Of a stretch of 40,078 nt of DNA, positions 8,186 through 40,078 are shown in pieces; the first letter of the stretch is position 1; each line of letters opens with the position of its first letter. Position numbers and translations under genes: made by a program. This stretch comes from an uncultured cyanobacterium (lineage in GTDB: Bacteria; Cyanobacteriota; Cyanobacteriia; CACIAM-69d), in the NCBI GenBank assembly GCA_937883785.1, contig CALGDE010000151.1:1-40078 (forward strand), in the 5' to 3' direction. Below the pieces are notes generated by a model. It did no database searches, was not told where the DNA came from, and saw only the letters and a program-made list of their open reading frames with translations.

Positions 8186-9484
8186 ATGCGCATTCTGTTC
8201 CTCCACCCCAATTTCCCCGCCCAGTTTCGCCACGTTTCCGCTATTTTGGGGCGGGATCCCAACAACCAGGTGGTGTTTGGAACGAAAAACGAAAATCCTG
8301 AATGGCGCATCGCCGGCGTGCGCAAGGTGCTGTTTAAGCCGTCCCGCGACGCCCACCCGGGCACCCATCATTACGTGCGCCCCACGGAAAACGCTGTGCT
8401 CCAGGGACAGGCTATGTACCGAGTCGCTGACGCCTTGCGCAACAGCGACTTTATCCCCGATTTGATTTACGGGCACTCCGGTTGGGGCTCCACCACTTTT
8501 ATTAAGGATGCATTTCCCGAGTCCAGATTTTTAGGCTATTTCGAGTGGTTCTATAACGCTCGTGGCACCGATGCGGATTTTGATCCCAATGATCCCCTGT
8601 CCGTGGATGATATTGCTCGGATTCGGTTGAAAAATGCGCCAATCTTGCTGGATTTAAATAGCTGTGATTACGGGGTTTGCCCCACGAAATGGCAGCGATC
8701 GCAATTTCCCGCCGAATATCGCCCCAAACTCAACGTAATCCACGACGGCGTTGACACGGAATACTTTGTGCCAAAACCCGGCGCAAAGCTAAAGCTGCCC
8801 AACTTGGACCTGTCCCACGTGGATGAAATTGTCACCTACGTTAGCCGTGGCATGGAACCCTATCGCGGCTTCCCAGAATTTATTGAGGCGATCGCCTATA
8901 TCCAAGAGCGCCGTCCCAACTGCCACGTGGTCATCGTCGGTTCGGAGCGAGTGTGCTACGGCAAACCCTTGCCCGACGGCAAATCTTACAAGCAACATAT
9001 GCTGGAAAAAGTGCCCCTAGATATGTCCCGGGTCCACTTCACCGGCTCCCTGCCTTATGGTCAATATATTCAGGTGCTGCAAGCTTCCTCGGCACATATT
9101 TACCTCACCCGCCCCTTTGTGCTGTCCTGGTCCATGATTGAGGCCATGTCCGTGGGATGTCTAATTATCGGCTCTTCGACGCCGCCGGTGGAGGAAATTG
9201 TCACTGACGGGGAGAACGGTTTATTGACGGATTTCTTCTCCCCCAAGAAGATCGCCGATCGCGTGGATGAGGTGTTGGATCATCCCGATGCCATGGCGCA
9301 AATTCGGCAAAATGCTCGAAATTTTGTGCTGGAACGCTACTCTCACCGCGCCCTGTTGCCAAAGCATATTCAGTTTATTCAGGACGCCGCTGCGGGTAAT
9401 CTGCCACCGGTGACCTATGGCGAAGGGTTGAACCTATGGGATCACTATGACACCGCTCCTAACCCGGCTTTGGTGGGGGTTTAA
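8186..9484 (+). CDS. Family 4 glycosyltransferase (GT-B)
   Basis: A 432-aa GT-B transferase. I start it at the ATG at 8186 because MRILFLHPNFPAQF is the usual first strand of this group; an upstream ATG at 8072 would add 38 residues without family character. The N-terminal half is the acceptor domain. The donor domain begins near residue 210 (TYVSRGMEPYRG), followed by IVGSERVCYG, and near 315-345 FVLSWSMIEAMSVGC and PPVEEIV, the region of the E-x7-E motif, where the first glutamate appears replaced. It presumably extends a polysaccharide or lipid-linked sugar using a nucleotide sugar at the inner membrane. It lies 217 bp after the second GT2 on the same strand. Confidence 0.9.
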   Translation: MRILFLHPNFPAQFRHVSAILGRDPNNQVVFGTKNENPEWRIAGVRKVLFKPSRDAHPGTHHYVRPTENAVLQGQAMYRVADALRNSDFIPDLIYGHSGWGSTTFIKDAFPESRFLGYFEWFYNARGTDADFDPNDPLSVDDIARIRLKNAPILLDLNSCDYGVCPTKWQRSQFPAEYRPKLNVIHDGVDTEYFVPKPGAKLKLPNLDLSHVDEIVTYVSRGMEPYRGFPEFIEAIAYIQERRPNCHVVIVGSERVCYGKPLPDGKSYKQHMLEKVPLDMSRVHFTGSLPYGQYIQVLQASSAHIYLTRPFVLSWSMIEAMSVGCLIIGSSTPPVEEIVTDGENGLLTDFFSPKKIADRVDEVLDHPDAMAQIRQNARNFVLERYSHRALLPKHIQFIQDAAAGNLPPVTYGEGLNLWDHYDTAPNPALVGV

Positions 9485-9598
9485 GGTCAAGATTAATTTA
9501 AATTTGCCTTATATCTCTGCTGTTTTTTCTGCTGTTAAATTCAGCTTTTCCGCTGAGTTTTCCCGTTCTTCGCTTTTCGGTCCTTCGCCTTTCGTTCC

Positions 9599-12592
9599 AT
9601 GGAAAAAGTTGCTTCCCTTTCTGATGTTTTGAATCGTGCCTGGGCGTTATTGACAACGGGCAATGTGGACGCAGCGGAAGGAATTTATCAGCAGGTTCGC
9701 AAGGAGCGTCCCGATAATATTGAGGCGTTTCACGGTTTGGCGCTGGCGAAGTTTGAAAAGGGGGAGCACGGGGAGGCGATCGCCCACATTGATCGAGTTA
9801 TCGAGGCTAAATCCGACAGCCCTCGCCACCTCAATACGGCGGCGGTGATTTGTCAGGGCTGCGGCGAAGTGGACGCTGCCTTGCGCCACTATAAAAGCGC
9901 CTTAGAAAAAATTGATCGATCGCCCCAGGTTCAGGACCCTAGCAATCAGAAATTGCGCCAGGAGGTTTTGCAGAATTTGCGATCGCTGGTGCTGTTTGCC
10001 AGGGATGCTTACGAAGACCTGGTGCAACACTACCTAAACGAAGGGGACCCCATCCGAGCAGCAGCCCTGAAGCTGAAAATTGGCAACCTGTGTCAAGAGG
10101 CAGGCTGGGCTGAACACGCCGTTTTCCATTACCGTCAAGGGCTAGAGTTTTGCCCCGTTAAAACCAACGTCGGTGGTGGTCACGCTATCCGTGCCGATAT
10201 TGACCAGTTGGGTACTCAACCTACGGAAGAGTCTGAAGTCCTTGATTTGGAGAAGGGGCGAGACTGTTGGCAAACACCAGCTCCCCGGGCAACCACTTTA
10301 AAACTGGGACACGATCCGGCTCCTCTCGCGATTGCCAGAGACCCAATTTTTGCCTTGCTGTATCACCAGCTTGGGGAAGTTTATGCCAAGCAAAACCAAT
10401 GGGAACAGGCTAAAGCTGCCTCCCAAGCTGCCCTGCAAATTCACTCCCAACAGCCCAAGGCGTTCAAACTTCTGGGTAACGCCCTAATGCAGCAAGGGAA
10501 TACCCAAGGGGCTGCCGACGCTTACCAAGCCGCCCTACAGCTTGATCCAGAGTATGTGGAAGCTTGGCTAAATTTAGGCAGCGCCCTGTTGTGCAAGTCC
10601 CAGTTGCCGGAGGCTTTAAATTGTTACCAACGGGCATTGGCGGTGGACTCGGATAATGCGATCGCCCACTGGAATATAGGGCTAGCCTACGAAAAAGCAG
10701 AAAAAATGCCGGAAGCTCTGCACCATTGGCAACGGGCTTTAACCCTTAATCCGGCGCAGCAGGGAGACGACGGCTACAACATGCTGGCCAACCACCTGGT
10801 GGCGGCGGAAAAGCGCAACGAAGGAATGACCTGGCACGAGCGCAATATTCAGCGGCATCCGCAAACGTTCAAATCCTATTGGGAAATGTGCGAGCTGCTC
10901 AACAACTGGTGTAGCTACGACCACGCCCATCGCATCGCCACCTTATTTCAAGAAAATGCTCGTACCACCACGATGAAGATTTTGGCGGGCATTATTAAAA
11001 CCAAAGTGCTTTGCAGCATCGGTCTTAATCAGGAGGCGCGGGAATGTTTTGAGACCATTGAAGCTGATATTTTCGAGGTACTACCCACCTTAAGCCGGGA
11101 TTACTTTGTTCGTATTTACATCAACACCCTGTTTGACTTGCCCCATATTCGCGACGATGTGGCGAAAAACAGCACCATCACCGCCACCCTCGGACGGCAA
11201 TATATTAAAAACTTTGAGGAGCAGGCTGCCAATGCTGTTAAGGAAAAGCCCCAGCTTGAATCTACGGTAAACAAACAATATCGGCGATGGACCCGGCGAT
11301 CGCCCAATCGTCCCCTGCGCCTTGGGTTTATGTCCAAGCACTTCCGTCGCCACTCCGTTGGCTGGTGTAGTGCCCAGATTTTTGCCGAGCTGCGGAAGCT
11401 AACGCCCCACCTGTTTTTCTACGTAACCGGCGATTTACACCGGGATGATCGTACTGTTCTGTTCGAGAACGTCGCCGAAAAGTTTTACTATCCCAACACC
11501 CCAGAGCTACCTAATTTGGGCACCGCCACCATTGCCCGGCGAGTTCTAGATGACCAGCTCGACGTGCTGTTGGATCTGGACTCCATTACGGTGCTGCCCC
11601 ACGCTGACGTGCTGCATATGGAGCCCGCCCCCGTTTGTATGACCTGGCTGGGGTATGACGCTCCCCATATCAACCCCAATAATTACAACCTGGTGGATTG
11701 GCACACCCATCCTGCCGGCGTTGACCGTCACTATGTGGAAAAGCTGATTCGTATGCCCGGTGCCTTCGCCGCCATTGACGACTTGCCTATTAGCAACACG
11801 GATCGTGTCCTTCAACGGCGCAGTTTTCGCATTGATGACGACCAGGTGGTGTTCCTGTGTGTGGCTACGGGGCAAAAGTTTAGCCGGGCGATGGTGCAGG
11901 CTCAAATCAATATTATTAAACAGGTGCCCGATAGTTTGTTGCTGTTTAAGTCTCGGGTTGGGGACTTGGACCTAATGTTGAAAACTTACCAAGAGGAGTG
12001 CGATCGCCAGGGGGTTCACCGCAGCCGGGTACGCACGGTACCGCGCACCGCGACGGAGGAGGAACATCGCACGGTGTACATCCTGTGTGATGTGCTTCTG
12101 GATTCCTACCCCTACAGCGGTGCCACCCACAACCTGGAGGCGCTATTTTTCAACTTGCCCATTGTGACGCGGGTGGGAGAGCAGTCTTTTTCCCGGCTGG
12201 GCTATTCCCTGATTCGAGCGGCGGGGGTCACCGAAGGCACCACCTGGAGCTGGGCGGAATATATTGAATGGGGGGTAAAACTAGGGCGCGATCGCCAATT
12301 ACGAGAATCCATTCAAGAAAAGCTGCGGCGGGGGAAAGAGCCTGGCAATTTGCAGCTTTTGTGGGATCCGAAAAGCTTTGCCAACACCATGTATCAAATT
12401 TTGGAAGACCTGCGCGATCGCGTAGCCGGCCCACCCGCCCTGCCCGCCGCTACCCCCTTCCCAGCCCTAACGTCGGGACAGCCTTCCCAAAATGGCAACA
12501 GTGTTAACGACGCCAACGGTGTAACGGCGAATGGGGCAAATAATGCTCCTGGCAATGCTCCTGGCGTGGACTCGACGGTGGCTTTGTTTTAG
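9599..12592 (+). CDS. TPR protein with O-GlcNAc-transferase/SPINDLY-type GT41 domain
   Basis: A 997-aa protein. Residues about 5-90 contain TPR-like helices (ALLTTGNVDAAEGIYQ), a linker follows, and clear TPRs occupy about 255-385 (YAKQNQWEQAKAASQAAL; LGNALMQQGNTQGAADAY). Residues about 570-930 match the GT41 catalytic region: LGFMSKHFRRHSVG, the DVLLDLD and PVCMTWLGY blocks, FLCVATGQKFS, and LCDVLLDSYPYSGATHNLEAL, which forms the UDP-binding site in OGT-like enzymes. The last about 45 residues are Ala/Pro/Asn-rich and probably disordered. Eukaryotic relatives glycosylate Ser/Thr; bacterial ones modify proteins or glycans. In this cluster it may glycosylate a surface protein or add to the polymer. 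The acceptor is unknown. Confidence 0.88.
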   Translation: MEKVASLSDVLNRAWALLTTGNVDAAEGIYQQVRKERPDNIEAFHGLALAKFEKGEHGEAIAHIDRVIEAKSDSPRHLNTAAVICQGCGEVDAALRHYKSALEKIDRSPQVQDPSNQKLRQEVLQNLRSLVLFARDAYEDLVQHYLNEGDPIRAAALKLKIGNLCQEAGWAEHAVFHYRQGLEFCPVKTNVGGGHAIRADIDQLGTQPTEESEVLDLEKGRDCWQTPAPRATTLKLGHDPAPLAIARDPIFALLYHQLGEVYAKQNQWEQAKAASQAALQIHSQQPKAFKLLGNALMQQGNTQGAADAYQAALQLDPEYVEAWLNLGSALLCKSQLPEALNCYQRALAVDSDNAIAHWNIGLAYEKAEKMPEALHHWQRALTLNPAQQGDDGYNMLANHLVAAEKRNEGMTWHERNIQRHPQTFKSYWEMCELLNNWCSYDHAHRIATLFQENARTTTMKILAGIIKTKVLCSIGLNQEARECFETIEADIFEVLPTLSRDYFVRIYINTLFDLPHIRDDVAKNSTITATLGRQYIKNFEEQAANAVKEKPQLESTVNKQYRRWTRRSPNRPLRLGFMSKHFRRHSVGWCSAQIFAELRKLTPHLFFYVTGDLHRDDRTVLFENVAEKFYYPNTPELPNLGTATIARRVLDDQLDVLLDLDSITVLPHADVLHMEPAPVCMTWLGYDAPHINPNNYNLVDWHTHPAGVDRHYVEKLIRMPGAFAAIDDLPISNTDRVLQRRSFRIDDDQVVFLCVATGQKFSRAMVQAQINIIKQVPDSLLLFKSRVGDLDLMLKTYQEECDRQGVHRSRVRTVPRTATEEEHRTVYILCDVLLDSYPYSGATHNLEALFFNLPIVTRVGEQSFSRLGYSLIRAAGVTEGTTWSWAEYIEWGVKLGRDRQLRESIQEKLRRGKEPGNLQLLWDPKSFANTMYQILEDLRDRVAGPPALPAATPFPALTSGQPSQNGNSVNDANGVTANGANNAPGNAPGVDSTVALF

Positions 12593-12600
12593 GGATTTTT

Positions 12601-13497
12601 ATGGACAAATTAGAGGCGATGCGAGCCTTTGTTCAGGTGGTGGAGTCGGGAGGCTTTGCGGCGGCGGCGCGACAAATGATGCTGACGCGATCCACCGTTA
12701 ACAAAGCGGTTATTGCCTTAGAAAAACAGCTTGGGGCGCAGCTTCTCCAGCGCAGCACCCGTCAGGTGAGCGTTACCGCCGCTGGCTGTGCCTACTATGA
12801 TCGCTGCGTTGCAATTTTGGCGGACCTATCCGAGGCAGATCAGGCGATCGCCCAGCTACAAATCGAGCCCCAGGGAGTGCTGCGGGTAAATGCCCCCATG
12901 AGCTTTGGCATCAGCCATCTAGCTCCGGCGATCGCGGACTTTATGGCGCACAATCCTAAAATCCAGGTGGACTGCATCTTAAACGACCGCACCATCGACC
13001 CCATTGAAGAGGGCTTTGATGTGACCGTCCGCATCAGCAGTGCTCCCCCCCTGGCCTCCCTAACCCAGATTGATCTGGCTTCCGTCCCCCTAAATCTATG
13101 CGCCGCCCCTGGTTACCTCAACCAACGTGCTCCCATCGACAACCCACGCACTTTACAGAGCTGGGATTGTCTCCACTACGGCTATCGTGCCCTTTGTACC
13201 CAGTGGCGACTGGCTGGTCCCGACGGCGAAGTTATTTTGCCCATCCGCCCGCGCCTGTGCTCCAATAACGGCGAAGTGCTACGGGAGGCGGCGATCGCCG
13301 GTCAAGGGGTTGCCCTTCTTCCTGAATTTATGGTGCAATCAGCGATGGCGGCGGGACAGTTGACGGCGATTTTGCCCGATTATTGCCCTACCCCCTTAAC
13401 CTTAAGTGCTTTATATCCATCCCATCGATATCTATCCGTTAAGGTCAAGCGTTTTGTTGAATTCCTTGGGGATCGCTTTGGTAATTTAACCCAGTGA
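12601..13497 (+). CDS. LysR-family transcriptional regulator
   Basis: A 298-aa regulator of normal LysR length. The winged helix-turn-helix lies at residues 1-60 (MDKLEAMRAFVQVVESGGFAAAAR, then RSTVNKAVIALEKQLG), followed by a linker helix and an effector domain from about 90 to 290 with the periplasmic-binding-protein fold. The N-terminus resembles the CrgA-like branch. It begins 8 bp after the TPR/GT41 stop, so it is probably on the end of that transcript. LysR regulators usually control a divergent gene or operon and themselves, and here no divergent neighbour exists, so its targets may be the glycan genes or distant loci. The inducer is not evident. Confidence 0.92.
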   Translation: MDKLEAMRAFVQVVESGGFAAAARQMMLTRSTVNKAVIALEKQLGAQLLQRSTRQVSVTAAGCAYYDRCVAILADLSEADQAIAQLQIEPQGVLRVNAPMSFGISHLAPAIADFMAHNPKIQVDCILNDRTIDPIEEGFDVTVRISSAPPLASLTQIDLASVPLNLCAAPGYLNQRAPIDNPRTLQSWDCLHYGYRALCTQWRLAGPDGEVILPIRPRLCSNNGEVLREAAIAGQGVALLPEFMVQSAMAAGQLTAILPDYCPTPLTLSALYPSHRYLSVKVKRFVEFLGDRFGNLTQ

Positions 13498-34554: not shown

Positions 34555-36618
34555 ATGACTGCTATGGACCCACTCCTGCTGAGTTTTTTGATGTCCCAAG
34601 GTATGGCGTACCTGCGGGTCAATCATGACGGGCAGATTTATGAGGCGTCGCCCGAGGTGCGTCAGTTTTCGGAGGCTCCAGAGGACTTTGATACCACTAG
34701 CACGTTAGATAACCACTTTCCTGAGCTAATTGGTTTAGAGGCGATTTTTGAAGATTTAATCTGTGGTGAGCTCAGTCATTTTCAGCTTCAGGGCATTGCA
34801 CGCCCCGCTTTCGAGCCGGATCCGTCGTTGTATTTTGATTTGACGATTTTGGTGGATCATAGCCGCGATCGCGCCCCTTTTATTTTGTTCCTCAACGATG
34901 TGACTGAGGATATGAAAATGAAGCAGCGCCTTACCCAAAATGCCAACGAGGTGGCGCTGCTATACGATCAACTGTCCGCTTCACAGACGTACATCAATCG
35001 TGTGATTGTATCTATGGCCGATGGGCTGTTGGTCACCGATAAGGACGGCATTATTGAAACCTGTAACCCCGCCGTTAAGACTTTATTGGGGTACCATCCC
35101 CAGGAATTGCTCCACCGGTCCCTCACGGTGTTGCTGGAAGGGGATAGTTTTGCGATCGATAGTCTTCATCCCAAAATTGACCAAGGGGAAGAGCTGGTTA
35201 GTGACCTAGAAGTGATCGGGCGAACTAAGCTGGGGCAGCGACGTACCCTGTCGTTTTCCTGTGGGGTGCTCCAGGGGAAACGGGTGGATGAGCCGCGATT
35301 TATCCACGTTTTTCGCGATGTTACTGAACGTCAGCGATCGCAAACGCGGATGCAGGTGCAATACAGTGCCGTGAGAACGTTCACCACTGAATCAGACATG
35401 AGCCAAGCGATCTCCAAGATCTTGCAAATTGTTTGCAGCGCCTTGGATTGGCACCTGGGTCAACTGTGGCTGGCCTCGGACAATGAAAAACACATTCTGC
35501 GCTGTACTCATACCTGGAAGCGTAGCCAGCGCCTTAAAACCTTTGCCAATTTCCTAAGCAACACTAGACCGGGCTGGGGCAGCGATTCAGGGGACAATGT
35601 TGACCCCTTCCACCTGAGGAAAAAGCCTGTGTGGATAGAAAACTTGCCGCGATGGTTAAAGGAGCACAAAGCCGATGGGGTCAGCATCAGCGTTGATAAC
35701 CAGTCTTTTAACTCCACCTATGCCCTGCTCAGTCAAGCGGCCACCGCCGGGGCAAAATCTGTGTTTGGCTTTCCCCTGTACAACTCCCTGGACCATATGG
35801 GCATGGCGCTGTTCTTTGACACCGTTGAACGTCCCTCTGAGCCAGACTATTGGCCTTTAGCAGCAATGCTAGGCAGCCATTTGGGGCAGTTTATCCAGCG
35901 TAAGCGAGCTGAAGCAGCGTTGCGTATTAGCCAAGCCGAAACAGAACGATTGCTGCTTAATATCCTGCCGGAGTCCGTTGCCGACCAGTTGCGCAATGTG
36001 GACCAAACCAAGGGCAGCGATATGGAAACGGTGTTTGGGGCTCGGCGAGCCACCATTGCGGAAGATTTTCCAGAGGTTACGGTGATGTTTGCCGATATTG
36101 TGGGCTTCACGGCTCTGGCCGATAAGCTACCACCGCTGGAGCTGGTGCAATCCCTAAATCAGATTTTCTCTCGCTTTGATCGACTGACCGAGGCTTACAA
36201 CCTGGAGAAAATCAAGACCATTGGTGATTCCTACATGGTGGTGGGCGGTTTGCCGGAGCTGCGTACTGACCATGCCCAGGCGATCGCCAGCATGGCGCTG
36301 GATATGCAAGAAACCCTGGGACAGTTGAATCAGGAACAGGGAAAGTCCTTTCAAATTCGCATTGGCATCCATACGGGACCGGTGGTCGCCGGGGTCATTG
36401 GGCTGAAAAAATTTGCCTATGACCTTTGGGGGGACACCGTTAACGTGGCTAGCCGTATGGAATCCCATGGCGAGCCCGGCAGAATCCAAGTTAGCGAAGT
36501 CACCTACAACCGCTTGAAAGGTGACTATATTTTTAAACCCAGGGGAGAAATTAAAGTGAAAGGAAAAGGGGGGATGACCACCTACTTTTTACAGTCAAAA
36601 TGTTTGTCTGAAACTTAA
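34555..36618 (+). CDS. PAS-GAF class III adenylate cyclase
   Basis: A 687-aa cytoplasmic signalling protein. A PAS-like region spans about residues 15-120, a second PAS with PAC about 145-265 (SMADGLLVTDKDGIIETCNPA; FIHVFRDVTERQ), and a GAF domain about 275-440. A short coiled coil leads into a catalytic domain at about 500-680. FADIVGFT near 511 holds the first metal aspartate, GDSY near 555 the second, K in KIKTIGD and D in YDLWGD are the adenine-selecting pair, and NVASRM supplies the transition-state Asn and Arg. ATP specificity, hence cAMP, is therefore predicted. No membrane helix is seen, so the PAS and GAF domains sense an internal signal. Confidence 0.93.
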   Translation: MTAMDPLLLSFLMSQGMAYLRVNHDGQIYEASPEVRQFSEAPEDFDTTSTLDNHFPELIGLEAIFEDLICGELSHFQLQGIARPAFEPDPSLYFDLTILVDHSRDRAPFILFLNDVTEDMKMKQRLTQNANEVALLYDQLSASQTYINRVIVSMADGLLVTDKDGIIETCNPAVKTLLGYHPQELLHRSLTVLLEGDSFAIDSLHPKIDQGEELVSDLEVIGRTKLGQRRTLSFSCGVLQGKRVDEPRFIHVFRDVTERQRSQTRMQVQYSAVRTFTTESDMSQAISKILQIVCSALDWHLGQLWLASDNEKHILRCTHTWKRSQRLKTFANFLSNTRPGWGSDSGDNVDPFHLRKKPVWIENLPRWLKEHKADGVSISVDNQSFNSTYALLSQAATAGAKSVFGFPLYNSLDHMGMALFFDTVERPSEPDYWPLAAMLGSHLGQFIQRKRAEAALRISQAETERLLLNILPESVADQLRNVDQTKGSDMETVFGARRATIAEDFPEVTVMFADIVGFTALADKLPPLELVQSLNQIFSRFDRLTEAYNLEKIKTIGDSYMVVGGLPELRTDHAQAIASMALDMQETLGQLNQEQGKSFQIRIGIHTGPVVAGVIGLKKFAYDLWGDTVNVASRMESHGEPGRIQVSEVTYNRLKGDYIFKPRGEIKVKGKGGMTTYFLQSKCLSET

Positions 36619-36700
36619 GTCATGTTATCAATTAAGCGTCAAAAACCTTACATAGTGGGGAATTTACGTCCTTTCAAAACAACGTAATTAGGGGCTGAAA
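36618..36700 (+). repeat. MITE-like element, copy E (decayed)
   Basis: This gap sequence retains AAGTcaTGTTATCAATtaa, ATAGTGGGGAATTTACGTCCTT and TCAAAACAAcg followed by TTAGGGGcTGAA, which align in order with GGCGTGTTATCAAT, GCAGTGAAAAGTACACGCCTTT and AAAACAAAAAATCCTAGGGGTCGAA of copy C. The right half is lost or unrecognisable. It lies between the cyclase gene and the OmpA-like gene. Confidence 0.45.
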
Positions 36701-36775
36701 TTTATATCATTAAAATCATTAACCTACTGCCCAGTCTAGCGTGATTGATTTGTCCAATAATCCCGACTACTTTTT

Positions 36776-38872
36776 ATGTCTACCACTGATTCTGTTGATA
36801 GTAATTCTGCAATAAAAAGAAGTTCGGACACGACCAGTCAAGATTCTATCGCTCAAAATTTCACTGAATCTTCCCCTGAGAATGGAGAAATCCAAAGCGT
36901 TGAAGATGGTGAAGATGCCCTAGAGCAATTGCGGGTTTTGCTGCTGGGAAATGGCATCAGCCACTTAGAAAATCAAATGGGCAATATGCAGGGAAGCCTG
37001 AATAAGGTGGAGCATGTTCTATTTGATTCACAGGAACTTTTAGATCGACTGGTTCCCATTGGGGTAGAGCTAATTTCACGGGAAATTAGCGAGTCTCGGG
37101 ATGAAATGTGCGATGTTTTAGCGCCAATTATTGACCGCCTAATTTACGAACGTGGAAAGGAAGATCTGGAGTCGATGGGGGAGGCGATCTCCCTAGCTTT
37201 ACCTTCGGCGATTCAAGCCCAAATTGAGTCTTCTCCCGAAACCTTGGCCCGGGTTTTGGGTCCAGAAATTTCCGCCGCTATCCGCACCCAAATGGATCTT
37301 AAACACGGGGCGATCGCTGAAGCGATTGCCGCAGAAATGGGCGAGGCGATACAGCGTCAAATTGAACTTGATCGCGATGTCATGGTGGATGCTCTCTATC
37401 CCATTATTGGGGGCACCATTAATAAATATCTGCAAGAGGTTATTAACGACATCAACGAAAAGGTTTCTGATTCGTTGAGTCCTGAAGGTATTAAGCGAAA
37501 AGTGCGGGCGCGCATGCAGGGAGTGTCGGAGGCGGAATTGATTTTGCGAGAATCGTCTCGTTTTTCGGCGCGGGCGGCATTCCTAATTCATAAGGAATCG
37601 GGACTAGTTATTGCTGAAGCCCAAAGCGAAGATGCAGAATCATTAGAGTCCGATATGTTGGCGGGGATGCTAACAGCAATTCGTAGCTTTGCCGCTGATT
37701 GTGTTATTGCAGATGATGGTGGCTCAGAACTCAATGAAATCGAGTACGGTTCGTCTCGAATTTTGTTGGAGGTGGCAGGATATTGTTATGTGGCAGTGAT
37801 TGCGTCAGGGGAAGTTCCTAAGGTTTATTTGCATAAACTACGCAATACTTTTGGCAGTTTAGTGCAGAACTATCGTAAGGAAATTTCTGAATTTGAAGGG
37901 GATTTAGGTACTGTTCCGGAAGATGTCACCACACGCCTTAGCTGGTTAATTGAACAGGGTTCATCGAAGGAGAAGAAAAACAGCGATGATAAGGAATCCT
38001 TCCCCGTTGTTACTTGGGCTCTGGGGGGAATTGGGGTGGCTATTGTTGGGCTATTTGGCTTTTTTTCTTATCAGAATTACCGAGTTAATCAATTAGAAAC
38101 GGCGGCCATTGAATCTGTTGCCCAAGATCCCACCTTGGGGCTGTATAACTTAACGGCGGCACTGGATGGCGATCGCATGGTAATGCGCGGTCGGGTGCCC
38201 AGCGACAACTTGCGGATACTGGCAGAACATCGGATGACCACGGCGGTGGGGGCGATCGACGATGGGATTGCTGTGGATAATCAGGTGCGGGCGGTCAATG
38301 TGCCCCCCAACCCTACGGCGGTGGCGGCGGAGGTGCATCGAACAATCCAGCTCTTTAACCAGCGAGAGGGGGTCAATTTGGATCCTGCCTATCGCCTGCG
38401 GTACGACCCGGCGAGTGACACGACCCAGGGAGAGGTGACTGTTAATGGCAGTGTGGGGGCGGTGCCGGTGTCGGAGGTGCGATCGGCGTTGGCGACAATT
38501 CCAGGGGTGGATCAGGTGGTGACAAACCTGGAGCCGATTATGCCGAAAATTGGCACTCGCCTATATTTTTCGGTGGGGTCGGCCAATGTGGTGACCATCG
38601 ATCGCCAGGTTAAACTTACGCCGATCTCTAATTTATTAAAGCGATCGCCCCAGGTGCGCCTCAAGATTATTGGTTACAGTCCCAGCGACGAAACGGGGGG
38701 CGGTCAGGGGTTGGCCTTGGAGCGATCGCGGCTGGTGCGACAGGATTTAATCGAGCGCGGTATTGCGCCAAATCGCTTAGAAGCAGAGGGGCGAGTGGGC
38801 GTGCCCGAAGATGTTACTGCCACGTCGCCCGATTGGGCTGGGCGGTCTGTCGCTTTTCAGGCAATTCCGTAA
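36776..38872 (+). CDS. Single-pass membrane protein with BON and OmpA-like C-terminal modules
   Basis: A 698-aa protein. Residues 1-60 are polar. About 75-235 contain helical repeats (LVPIGVELISREISES; LAPIIDRLIYERGKED; LGPEISAAIRTQMD; LYPIIGGTINKYL). About 240-375 form an alpha/beta domain resembling the roadblock/longin type (AAFLIHKESGLVIAEAQ; GMLTAIRSF; YGSSRILLEVAGYCYVAVI). One membrane helix lies near 412-432 (ALGGIGVAIVGLFGFFSY). BON-like segments follow (about 445-580), then an OmpA-type peptidoglycan-binding region with FSVGSANV and LERSRLVRQDLIERGI. The N-terminal 400 residues should be cytoplasmic and the end periplasmic. It may link a cytoplasmic signal to the wall. Domain names are inferred by pattern. 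Confidence 0.8.
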   Translation: MSTTDSVDSNSAIKRSSDTTSQDSIAQNFTESSPENGEIQSVEDGEDALEQLRVLLLGNGISHLENQMGNMQGSLNKVEHVLFDSQELLDRLVPIGVELISREISESRDEMCDVLAPIIDRLIYERGKEDLESMGEAISLALPSAIQAQIESSPETLARVLGPEISAAIRTQMDLKHGAIAEAIAAEMGEAIQRQIELDRDVMVDALYPIIGGTINKYLQEVINDINEKVSDSLSPEGIKRKVRARMQGVSEAELILRESSRFSARAAFLIHKESGLVIAEAQSEDAESLESDMLAGMLTAIRSFAADCVIADDGGSELNEIEYGSSRILLEVAGYCYVAVIASGEVPKVYLHKLRNTFGSLVQNYRKEISEFEGDLGTVPEDVTTRLSWLIEQGSSKEKKNSDDKESFPVVTWALGGIGVAIVGLFGFFSYQNYRVNQLETAAIESVAQDPTLGLYNLTAALDGDRMVMRGRVPSDNLRILAEHRMTTAVGAIDDGIAVDNQVRAVNVPPNPTAVAAEVHRTIQLFNQREGVNLDPAYRLRYDPASDTTQGEVTVNGSVGAVPVSEVRSALATIPGVDQVVTNLEPIMPKIGTRLYFSVGSANVVTIDRQVKLTPISNLLKRSPQVRLKIIGYSPSDETGGGQGLALERSRLVRQDLIERGIAPNRLEAEGRVGVPEDVTATSPDWAGRSVAFQAIP

Positions 38873-38889
38873 GCTGTTGCCAAAATCTA

Positions 38890-39265
38890 CTTCAACAGCT
38901 TTTTCCGTTGCTGACGGGCGGACAAATTTTACGATGCCAGAATCCTATTCGTTTGCCGAATGTCAGCGAGCCTGAGCCAGACGTTGCCATTGTGCGACAG
39001 CGGAAAGATAGCTATCTCGATGGTCATCCTGAACCTGCTGGCATCCTTTTTTTGCTGGTGGAGGTGGCGGATTGTCGTTGGCGTTTGACCGTGATGTGAA
39101 GTTGCCGCTGTATCGGGGGTGGGGATTGAGTGGGTGTGGTTGGTGAATTTTCCCCAGGATCGCATTGAGGTATATCAACAGTCCGGGGAAGAGAGGTTTT
39201 GTGGGCGGGGGGAGTTGATTGAGTTTGGAGGGCGGATGATTGCCGTTGACCAGGTTTTGCCGTAG
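38890..39265 (+). pseudogene. Uma2-family (DUF820) endonuclease remnant
   Basis: Three frames together encode a Uma2-like protein. The first has QNPIRLPNVSEPEPDVAIV with the metal-binding Asp and LLVEVAD (to about 39072). A frame change near 39073 leads to SLAFDRDVKLPLYR, and another near 39115 to GIEWVWLVNF and DRIEVYQQSG, ending with TAG at 39263-39265. The N-terminal about 80 residues are absent. Uma2 genes are abundant in cyanobacteria and often decay. Two frameshifts and a 5' truncation make a working product very unlikely unless the sequence has errors. Confidence 0.8.
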
Positions 39266-39375
39266 GAAGAAGTGGACCGATGCTGGACGTTTTGCGTGCC
39301 TGTCTCGCCCCTGCTTTGGCATAGCGGCGATTAGGGGGGGGCGATAAGATTGGGGCGTGGGTTTTAGGTGGTGTG

Positions 39376-39918
39376 ATGGTGAAAGTGAGATTGCTGGGGG
39401 CGATGCTGGCTGGAATGTTGCTAGTGCCGGGGATAGCGCTAGCGCAGGGGCAAAGCTTAGATCAGTTGATTGAGCAAGGGGAGCGCCTTCGGGGACAGGG
39501 TGATTTTCGCGGGGCGGAGCAGGTTTTTCAGCGGATGGTTCGAGAGTTTCCCCGCAGCTCCAGGGCGTTTGCCAACCTGTGCAATGTTTTGGACGATTTG
39601 AATCGGCTGGATGAAGCGAGACGGGCTTGTTTACGGGCAGTCACTATCGATGATGAAAATCAATGGGCACATTTTCTGCTCGGATACGTTGCGCGTCGTC
39701 AGGGAAATTTATATGCAGCGATCGCCAGTTACGACCGTGCCATAGAGCTCAATCCCAATTACGCCATCGCTTACTACAACCGCGGGATTGCGCTGTCTGA
39801 CCAAGGGGAATTGGAGGCGGCGATCGCCAGTTACGACCGTGCCATAGAGCTCAATCCCAATTACGCGAAAGCTTACTACAACCGCGGGCTTGCGCTGAGA
39901 GACCAAGGGAAATTGTAA
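39376..39918 (+). CDS. Secreted TPR protein, shortened by an in-frame stop
   Basis: A 180-aa product as read. ATG 39376 follows AGGTGG at 39366-39371; a GTG three bases earlier is an alternative. Residues 1-23 form a signal peptide with likely cut at ALA/QGQ. TPR units start near residue 30 (LIEQGERLRGQGDFRGAEQVFQ) and become near-identical 34-residue repeats of the [16 protein letters not shown] type from about residue 114. TAA at 39916-39918 ends the frame where the neighbouring units have Glu or Ala, and the same frame continues with further TPRs to the window edge. The intact gene would be a periplasmic or surface TPR scaffold. Partners are unknown. Confidence 0.8.
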   Translation: MVKVRLLGAMLAGMLLVPGIALAQGQSLDQLIEQGERLRGQGDFRGAEQVFQRMVREFPRSSRAFANLCNVLDDLNRLDEARRACLRAVTIDDENQWAHFLLGYVARRQGNLYAAIASYDRAIELNPNYAIAYYNRGIALSDQGELEAAIASYDRAIELNPNYAKAYYNRGLALRDQGKL

Positions 39919-40078
39919 GCGGCGATCGCCAGTTACGACCGTGCCATAGAGCTCAATCCCAATAACGCCACCGCTTACAACAACCGCGGGAATGCGCTGA
40001 GAGCCCAAGGGAAATTGGCGGCGGCGATCGCCAGTTACGACCGTGCCATAGAGCTCAATCCCAATTACGCCATCGCTT
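39718..40078 (+). repeat. 102-bp TPR-coding tandem DNA repeat array
   Basis: Units of exactly 102 bp (34 codons) start at 39718, 39820, 39922 and 40024, each beginning with GCGATCGCC and AGTTACGACCGTGCCATAGA. The 48 bp at each unit start are almost identical, so the array expanded recently or is kept uniform by recombination. A HIP1 octamer lies at each junction. The array runs off the window. Confidence 0.92.
39919..40078 (+). pseudogene. In-frame continuation of the TPR gene after the stop codon
   Basis: After TAA at 39916-39918 the frame remains open and encodes more TPR units ([28 protein letters not shown], and a partial next unit) to the window end. No new start signal is visible. It is the severed part of the preceding gene unless the stop is read through or is a sequencing or assembly error in the repeat array. 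Confidence 0.7.

Follow-up and report, generated by a model that had tools for sequence, protein, structure and literature searches.

The window, a stretch of 40,078 nucleotides from an uncultured cyanobacterium, corresponds to contig C151 in a genome of 4.84 Mb (G000) and includes a cytochrome c-550 gene. Two adjacent genes on its forward strand encode a class III adenylyl cyclase (687 amino acids, 34555–36618) and a membrane-spanning OmpA protein (698 amino acids, 36776–38872); all domains described below, and the repeat between the genes, lie on that strand. Both genes had been picked out in a preliminary description of the window, and both are present as described there, in a gene set whose recurrence in many genomes is beyond chance. 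Here we describe them as candidate members of a Group 1 Rup system, a type of gene neighborhood outlined from genome context by Wuichet and Sogaard-Andersen (2014; PMC4316618, main text).

The two genes are 157 bp apart, and this gap holds an interspersed repeat of ~79 nt (36623–36701). The repeat has at least 39 further copies in the window's own genome (40 of 91 candidates scored), and the gap is unlike its counterpart in the sister species G001, so the repeat copy noted earlier between the genes is real. Promoter- and terminator-like matches near both genes showed no excess over shuffles.

Domain anatomy of the two proteins

The cyclase comprises an N-terminal domain that is common to Rup outputs and predicted to adopt a PAS fold, a second PAS domain (residues 148–261 from the Pfam PAS families, 34996–35337; E 1.6e-12 at residues 156–258), a GAF-like region and a catalytic domain (36058–36594; Guanylate_cyc, PF00211, E 3.5e-70 at residues 502–680). 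Its ATP-type residues D514, K554, D558, D623, N630 and R634 are intact, as had been stated; together we take these to be the two metal-binding Asp residues, the Lys/Asp adenine pair and the Asn/Arg transition-state pair. D514 is kept in 24 of 25 aligned relatives and each of the other five in 25/25. The protein, which can also be aligned with mammalian cyclases, has every residue expected of a cyclase that uses ATP. PAS and GAF sensors had been proposed as well. The PAS domain stands, and a GAF region is plausible by homology only: Pfam gave no GAF match in the window cyclase at E ≤ 1, and GAF_2 scores E 3.9e-7 in its Roseofilum homologue. The genome has 28 PF00211 matches in all, a large number of class III cyclases for a single bacterium. 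cAMP has been tied to motility in cyanobacteria; the present data do not tie the window cyclase to motility.

The second protein begins with a helical region (residues 75–251, 36998–37528; AlphaFold, moderate to low confidence) and a predicted longin-like domain of the roadblock superfold (residues 252–395, 37529–37960). A single hydrophobic helix near residues 409–431 (38000–38068, from hydropathy) follows, then a BON-like stretch (38420–38530) and an OmpA-like domain (residues 597–675, 38564–38800). The helices, the roadblock/longin-like domain and the one membrane helix agree with the preliminary description. The BON and OmpA modules it also named are weak in the window (BON E 0.4; OmpA E 9.1e-6, just below Pfam's cut-off) and both clear in the relative at L017 (OmpA 1e-12, BON 4.1e-12). 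A motif check of the OmpA domain found Arg650 in 66 of 67 relatives; at the position where Asp is expected, the five commonest letters do not include it. Wall binding by this domain is doubtful, and so is the earlier wall-anchor reading, because the usual Asp of the peptidoglycan ligand site, which we take to consist of Asp plus Arg, is mostly missing, though the Arg is kept.

The name longin-like comes from a structure prediction. The AlphaFold model, built with 62 sequences, has a pLDDT of 80 overall and a pTM of 0.51; the alpha/beta domain is mostly at 80–97 apart from two blocks of ten (66 and 74), and values fall to 46–59 in part of the helical region. The best VIA matches of the model are longin domains, those of Sec22b (1ifq; Z 13.7, rmsd 2.7, 125 residues) and VAMP7 (4afi; Z 13.6, rmsd 2.4, 118 residues), together with TRAPP subunits, Ykt6 and a Fuzzy-Inturned chain (11.5). 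MglB (3t12) scored Z 10.5 (rmsd 2.5, 105 residues), and the gap between 13.7 and 10.5 is partly a length effect between folds that share one superfold. By Foldseek alone, longins and MglB rank close together. Predicted structure thus supports a longin-like domain, nearer to longin than to MglB, and of the two names first given to it longin is the nearer.

Sequence support for longin homology is thin. Fuz_longin_1 (PF19036) matched 2 of 62 family members at E ≤ 1 (best 1.6e-4, below cut-off; one match falls at the longin-like region) and had no match above cut-off in 48 genomes. A profile search of solved structures returned nothing useful, and 10 divergent members searched for longin homology gave only OmpA and noise. 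Robl_LC7 (PF03259), the other candidate family, had no match in the window's own genome at E ≤ 0.001 (the control was found in 3 of 14) and is not among the 25 families listed for the 62 members. With no Robl_LC7 match in the genome and a structure nearer to longin than to MglB, we dropped a reading built on MglA and a roadblock GTPase-activating protein as first choice. PMC4917890 already notes that bacteria have longin/roadblock domains, and a bacterial longin is therefore no novelty in itself.

A conserved gene row in cyanobacteria and beyond

Relatives of the OmpA protein occur in 12 of 39 genomes (the window's own included) and on 5 named contigs, and a profile of the helical and longin part matches 79 of the 388 genomes of the class. 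Around these relatives a row of genes recurs, with a coiled-coil gene upstream of the OmpA gene, a Ras-family GTPase of ~190 amino acids downstream, and then output proteins. The row GTPase matches Pfam Ras at E 4.2e-31, and its best solved relative is Rab22A (E 8.1e-26). At 74 of 88 loci with the helical/longin part, the GTPase gene follows on the same strand at a distance of no more than 1.5 kb (56 of 68 strong and 18 of 20 weak loci); the coiled-coil gene is upstream at 70 (51 strong, 19 weak). These 88 loci are 72 fetched stretches, 10 of 13 from a second set, the 5 named-contig loci and the window, and at least one pair among them (L019 and L102) looks redundant. The segment sets used 62 of 66 non-redundant segments in one case and 38 of 39 in another. 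Where a strong locus has no adjacent GTPase (12 loci), a strong GTPase match is present elsewhere in every genome except G001.

The connection to small GTPases raised in the preliminary description is borne out by these loci. Its proposed survey of neighbors for MglA/Ras-like GTPases brought up the Ras/Rab-like kind, for which, judged by gene set and motifs, the Rup type is a better fit than MglA. Nothing in the present data connects it with motility or polarity, as had been suggested.

In the same-family relative G002 (L022), a cyclase, a CBS/PAS protein, the coiled-coil gene, the OmpA protein and the GTPase lie together within ~7 kb. In G003, G004 and G005, a second GTPase directly precedes a cyclase that carries the N-terminal domain. 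Across the 388 genomes, strong matches were counted at analyst-set cut-offs of E 1e-60 for the longin part, 1e-15 for the N-terminal domain and 1e-60 for the GTPase; they were found in 60, 66 and 61 genomes, respectively, and 57 genomes have all three.

The row also occurs outside cyanobacteria. On a Mesorhizobium plasmid, genes for a coiled-coil protein, an OmpA family protein, a 'Rab family GTPase' and a cyclase follow one another, separated by 6, 11 and 3 bp, and two Rhizobium plasmids have the same gene order. Our family profiles match each gene of the rhizobial locus L185 (54, 212, 128 and 187 bits). The N-terminus of the rhizobial cyclase aligns with the N-terminal domain through its Gln motif, a modest match (hhalign probability 68%, E 4.8e-5). 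Linkage to a cyclase, then, recurs, and neither an unrelated fold nor a lack of linkage was found.

Two variants of the row were seen. A divergent branch of 20 weak loci (L031, L032, L121–L138) has the coiled-coil gene at 19/20 and the GTPase, with a G3 motif of G-E-D, at 18/20; no output protein with the N-terminal domain lies near any of the 20. At Roseofilum-type loci (L016–L018), the genes between GTPase and cyclase encode a SpoIIE phosphatase that carries the N-terminal domain, a DUF6272 protein and a STAS/SiaC-like protein, an arrangement that suggests a partner-switch branch of the Rup system.

The N-terminal domain of the output proteins

The part of the locus that proved most informative was one that the preliminary description had passed over, namely residues 1–154 of the cyclase (34555–35016). 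This segment resembles the N-termini of histidine kinases, SpoIIE-type phosphatases and GGDEF proteins at Rup loci. The domain types among 60 scanned outputs (62 open reading frames with the domain, less L102 and L078) were 37 histidine kinase, 16 cyclase, 3 SpoIIE and 3 GGDEF. An alignment of 53 rows, the window cyclase and 52 other outputs, has 8 invariant columns, and the window cyclase keeps all 8 residues; two glutamines are near-invariant, Q124 in 51/53 and Q128 in 52/53 (codons Q124 to Q128, 34924–34938). AlphaFold predicts the domain, with high confidence (pLDDT 92.3), to be a PAS fold that leads into a long signaling helix, and the best Foldseek matches are PAS/LOV domains.

In the window's genome the domain occurs in one place, the window cyclase. 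Counting this protein, we found 25 cyanobacterial cyclases with the domain (24 others); a GTPase gene lies within the fetched stretch at 19 of them and directly upstream at 9, and the two frames touch or overlap at 4 (L027, L179, L105 and L112). Nine of the 25 had been fetched through the N-terminal domain alone, not through the OmpA protein; in 5 of the nine, the gene immediately upstream is the GTPase. These observations bear on whether the two window genes are neighbors by accident. With 28 PF00211 matches in 4.84 Mb, some chance adjacency is likely in such a cyclase-rich genome; for this pair it is highly improbable, and we reject it because the window cyclase alone in its genome carries the system's N-terminal domain and the linkage recurs in other genomes and in another phylum.

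How often cyclases joined the system is less clear. On a tree of the domain made by a quick method (83 rows, 148 columns), the labels cyclase and other change 9 times, against a shuffle mean of 20.2. A single clade of cyclase outputs was rejected (p-AU 0.0105), and the starred branches force only 2 changes. Given few columns and long branches, recruitment of cyclase outputs at least twice is a lean, not a result.

A domain that several output types have in common is usually an input domain. Its Gln124 and Gln128 would correspond to the invariant Gln that the main text of PMC4316618 describes in the output N-terminus, and that text speculates that this residue may stand in for the Gln missing from the GTPase. 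In the G3 motif of 56 strong GTPase relatives, Gln is kept in 13 and is otherwise replaced mostly by Ser, His or Asn; its loss is not universal. These residues also invite a reversed flow, with the PAS/GAF cyclase upstream as a GTPase-activating protein acting in trans through the Gln motif, the OmpA/longin protein as the envelope effector, and cAMP as a side branch. The near-invariant glutamines, the loss of the G3 Gln from most of the GTPases (Arg in that of the window's genome) and the published speculation, in that main text, on a Gln supplied in trans all fit such an arrangement. We nonetheless consider it unlikely, as the domain is found on kinase, cyclase, SpoIIE phosphatase and GGDEF outputs alike, in the usual manner of an input domain, and the catalytic residues of the cyclase are fully kept.

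A probable, dispersed Rup system and its proposed mechanism

The remaining genes of the set are scattered in the window's genome. Its sole full-length GTPase of Rup type (G000:C142:57723–58244) stands beside RNA-processing and DNA polymerase genes. This GTPase is 63% identical to that of the Roseofilum row, matches Pfam Ras at E 2.2e-27 and keeps the G1, G4 and G5 motifs; its G3 motif reads DLEGRN, with Arg instead of the catalytic Gln. A relative of the coiled-coil gene (209 bits) lies on contig C167 between a mechanosensitive-channel gene (PF00924) and a BON/OmpA protein in which the longin part was not detected (locus L029, G000:C167:40000–58000, at 8381–13441). At L032 (578–3860), a relative of the C167 channel gene directly precedes the longin/OmpA-type protein, and a channel-linked variant of the system is possible. 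In this genome, then, the Group 1 Rup genes are spread over three contigs and do not form one neighborhood, as they do at L022. The cyclase and the OmpA protein stay adjacent in both species of the genus (86% and 82% identity), and the window would represent a broken-up, dispersed version of the ancestral row.

Dispersal could instead mean that the system has come apart in this genus; the cyclase would then work by itself, guided by its PAS/GAF sensors, and the OmpA protein would be a leftover with another role. The three contigs, the repeat inserted between the two genes, the eroded OmpA motif and the GTPase not found in G001 would all agree with this. We think it quite improbable, since the GTPase of the window's genome is intact in G1, G4 and G5, the N-terminal domain keeps every invariant residue, and the two genes have remained together in both species.

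Other genes at this end of the window lie outside the set. A frame-broken piece of a gene for a Uma2-type putative restriction endonuclease (38833–39322; PF05685 E 3.3e-6) adjoins the OmpA gene. It is followed by a TPR-repeat gene of near-identical 102-bp units (39373–40078), in which a TAA ends the frame in mid-unit while the repeat runs on to the contig end, either a premature stop or an assembly problem.

We regard it as probable that the window genes encode the envelope sensor and the cyclase output of a Group 1 Rup system whose remaining genes lie elsewhere in the genome, a reading drawn from gene set and domain anatomy. In the main text of PMC4316618, the parts of such a system are a Ras/Rab-like GTPase, a coiled-coil protein, a protein with a conserved domain, a membrane helix and OmpA, and an output with an invariant-Gln N-terminus, typically a diguanylate cyclase/phosphodiesterase fusion or a histidine kinase. 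That text states that no Rup had been characterized by then and that none was found coupled to MglB homologues. The architecture, which the preliminary description did not know as a system, had thus been described, if not characterized; in the open-access literature we found later papers on MglA, conservons and eukaryotic systems, but no experimental work on Rup. The window's genome likewise has the GTPase, the coiled-coil protein, the membrane-OmpA protein and a Gln-bearing output. It departs from the published outline in three respects: an adenylyl cyclase of class III as output, scattered genes, and a longin-like fold predicted here for the paper's unknown domain. The words 'adenylate', 'adenylyl', 'cAMP' and 'longin' are all absent from its main text. 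As far as that text goes, the Rup system is partly anticipated in print, and the one described here is a variant with cyclase output.

Several points weigh against this assignment. The window itself has no GTPase or coiled-coil gene and carries a repeat between its two genes, and no GTPase match was found in G001, the sister species, whose assembly is 93% complete and in 730 contigs. Cyclases are a minority output, 16/60 against 37/60 for histidine kinases. Two genomes, G160 and G255, have the longin part and the GTPase without a strong match to the N-terminal domain, and in seven, G001 among them, the N-terminal domain is matched strongly and the GTPase is not. Fisher tests on the co-occurrence ignore shared ancestry and are not leaned on. 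The cyclase's own PAS and GAF-like sensors could regulate it alone. Finally, we infer the interactions among GTPase, cyclase and OmpA protein, and what is shown is the gene set and the domain anatomy.

If the two genes belong to a Rup system, a signaling route may be outlined. The OmpA/BON part would report on the state of the periplasm or wall by way of the single membrane helix. On the cytoplasmic side, the helical and longin-like part would bind the GTPase and shift its nucleotide state, as exchange factor or scaffold; that the longin-like domain is an exchange factor is a tentative suggestion. GTP-bound Rup would then dock on the N-terminal PAS/signaling-helix domain of the cyclase dimer and switch cAMP synthesis, and control of the cyclase by the GTPase seems to us reasonably likely. 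Gln124 and Gln128 may aid GTP hydrolysis in trans, in keeping with the speculation in the main text of PMC4316618.

Parallels exist in several known systems. The MglA-MglB polarity module also pairs a small Ras-like GTPase with a partner of the roadblock superfold; the partner here is membrane-bound and longin-like, and Robl_LC7 has no match in the genome. In the eukaryotic longin-type Rab exchange factors Mon1-Ccz1, Fuzzy-Inturned and TRAPP, a longin fold is likewise tied to a Rab-like GTPase, whereas the window protein has a single predicted longin-like domain and is membrane-spanning and bacterial. In yeast, a Ras-type GTPase is tied to adenylyl cyclase; homology of the GTPase-binding parts is not implied, and the likeness is probably convergent. 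Actinobacterial conservons link a GTPase with a signaling enzyme and a roadblock-type protein, but according to the main text of PMC4316618 theirs are an MglA-type GTPase and a histidine kinase, with no OmpA protein.

On the widest interpretation, which we rate as rather unlikely, a Ras-to-cAMP pathway operates in at least two phyla, with one membrane protein coupling the envelope to a cytoplasmic exchange factor of longin-like fold, whose Rab-like GTPase drives an adenylyl cyclase; the partnership of longin and GTPase would then be a bacterial counterpart of the eukaryotic longin-type Rab regulators. A cyclase output would give the Rup system a simple enzymatic readout, and the tight four-gene row on rhizobial plasmids would lend itself to reconstitution. 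The presence of a longin-like partner beside a bacterial Rab-like GTPase bears on the origin of the eukaryotic longin-Rab pairing.

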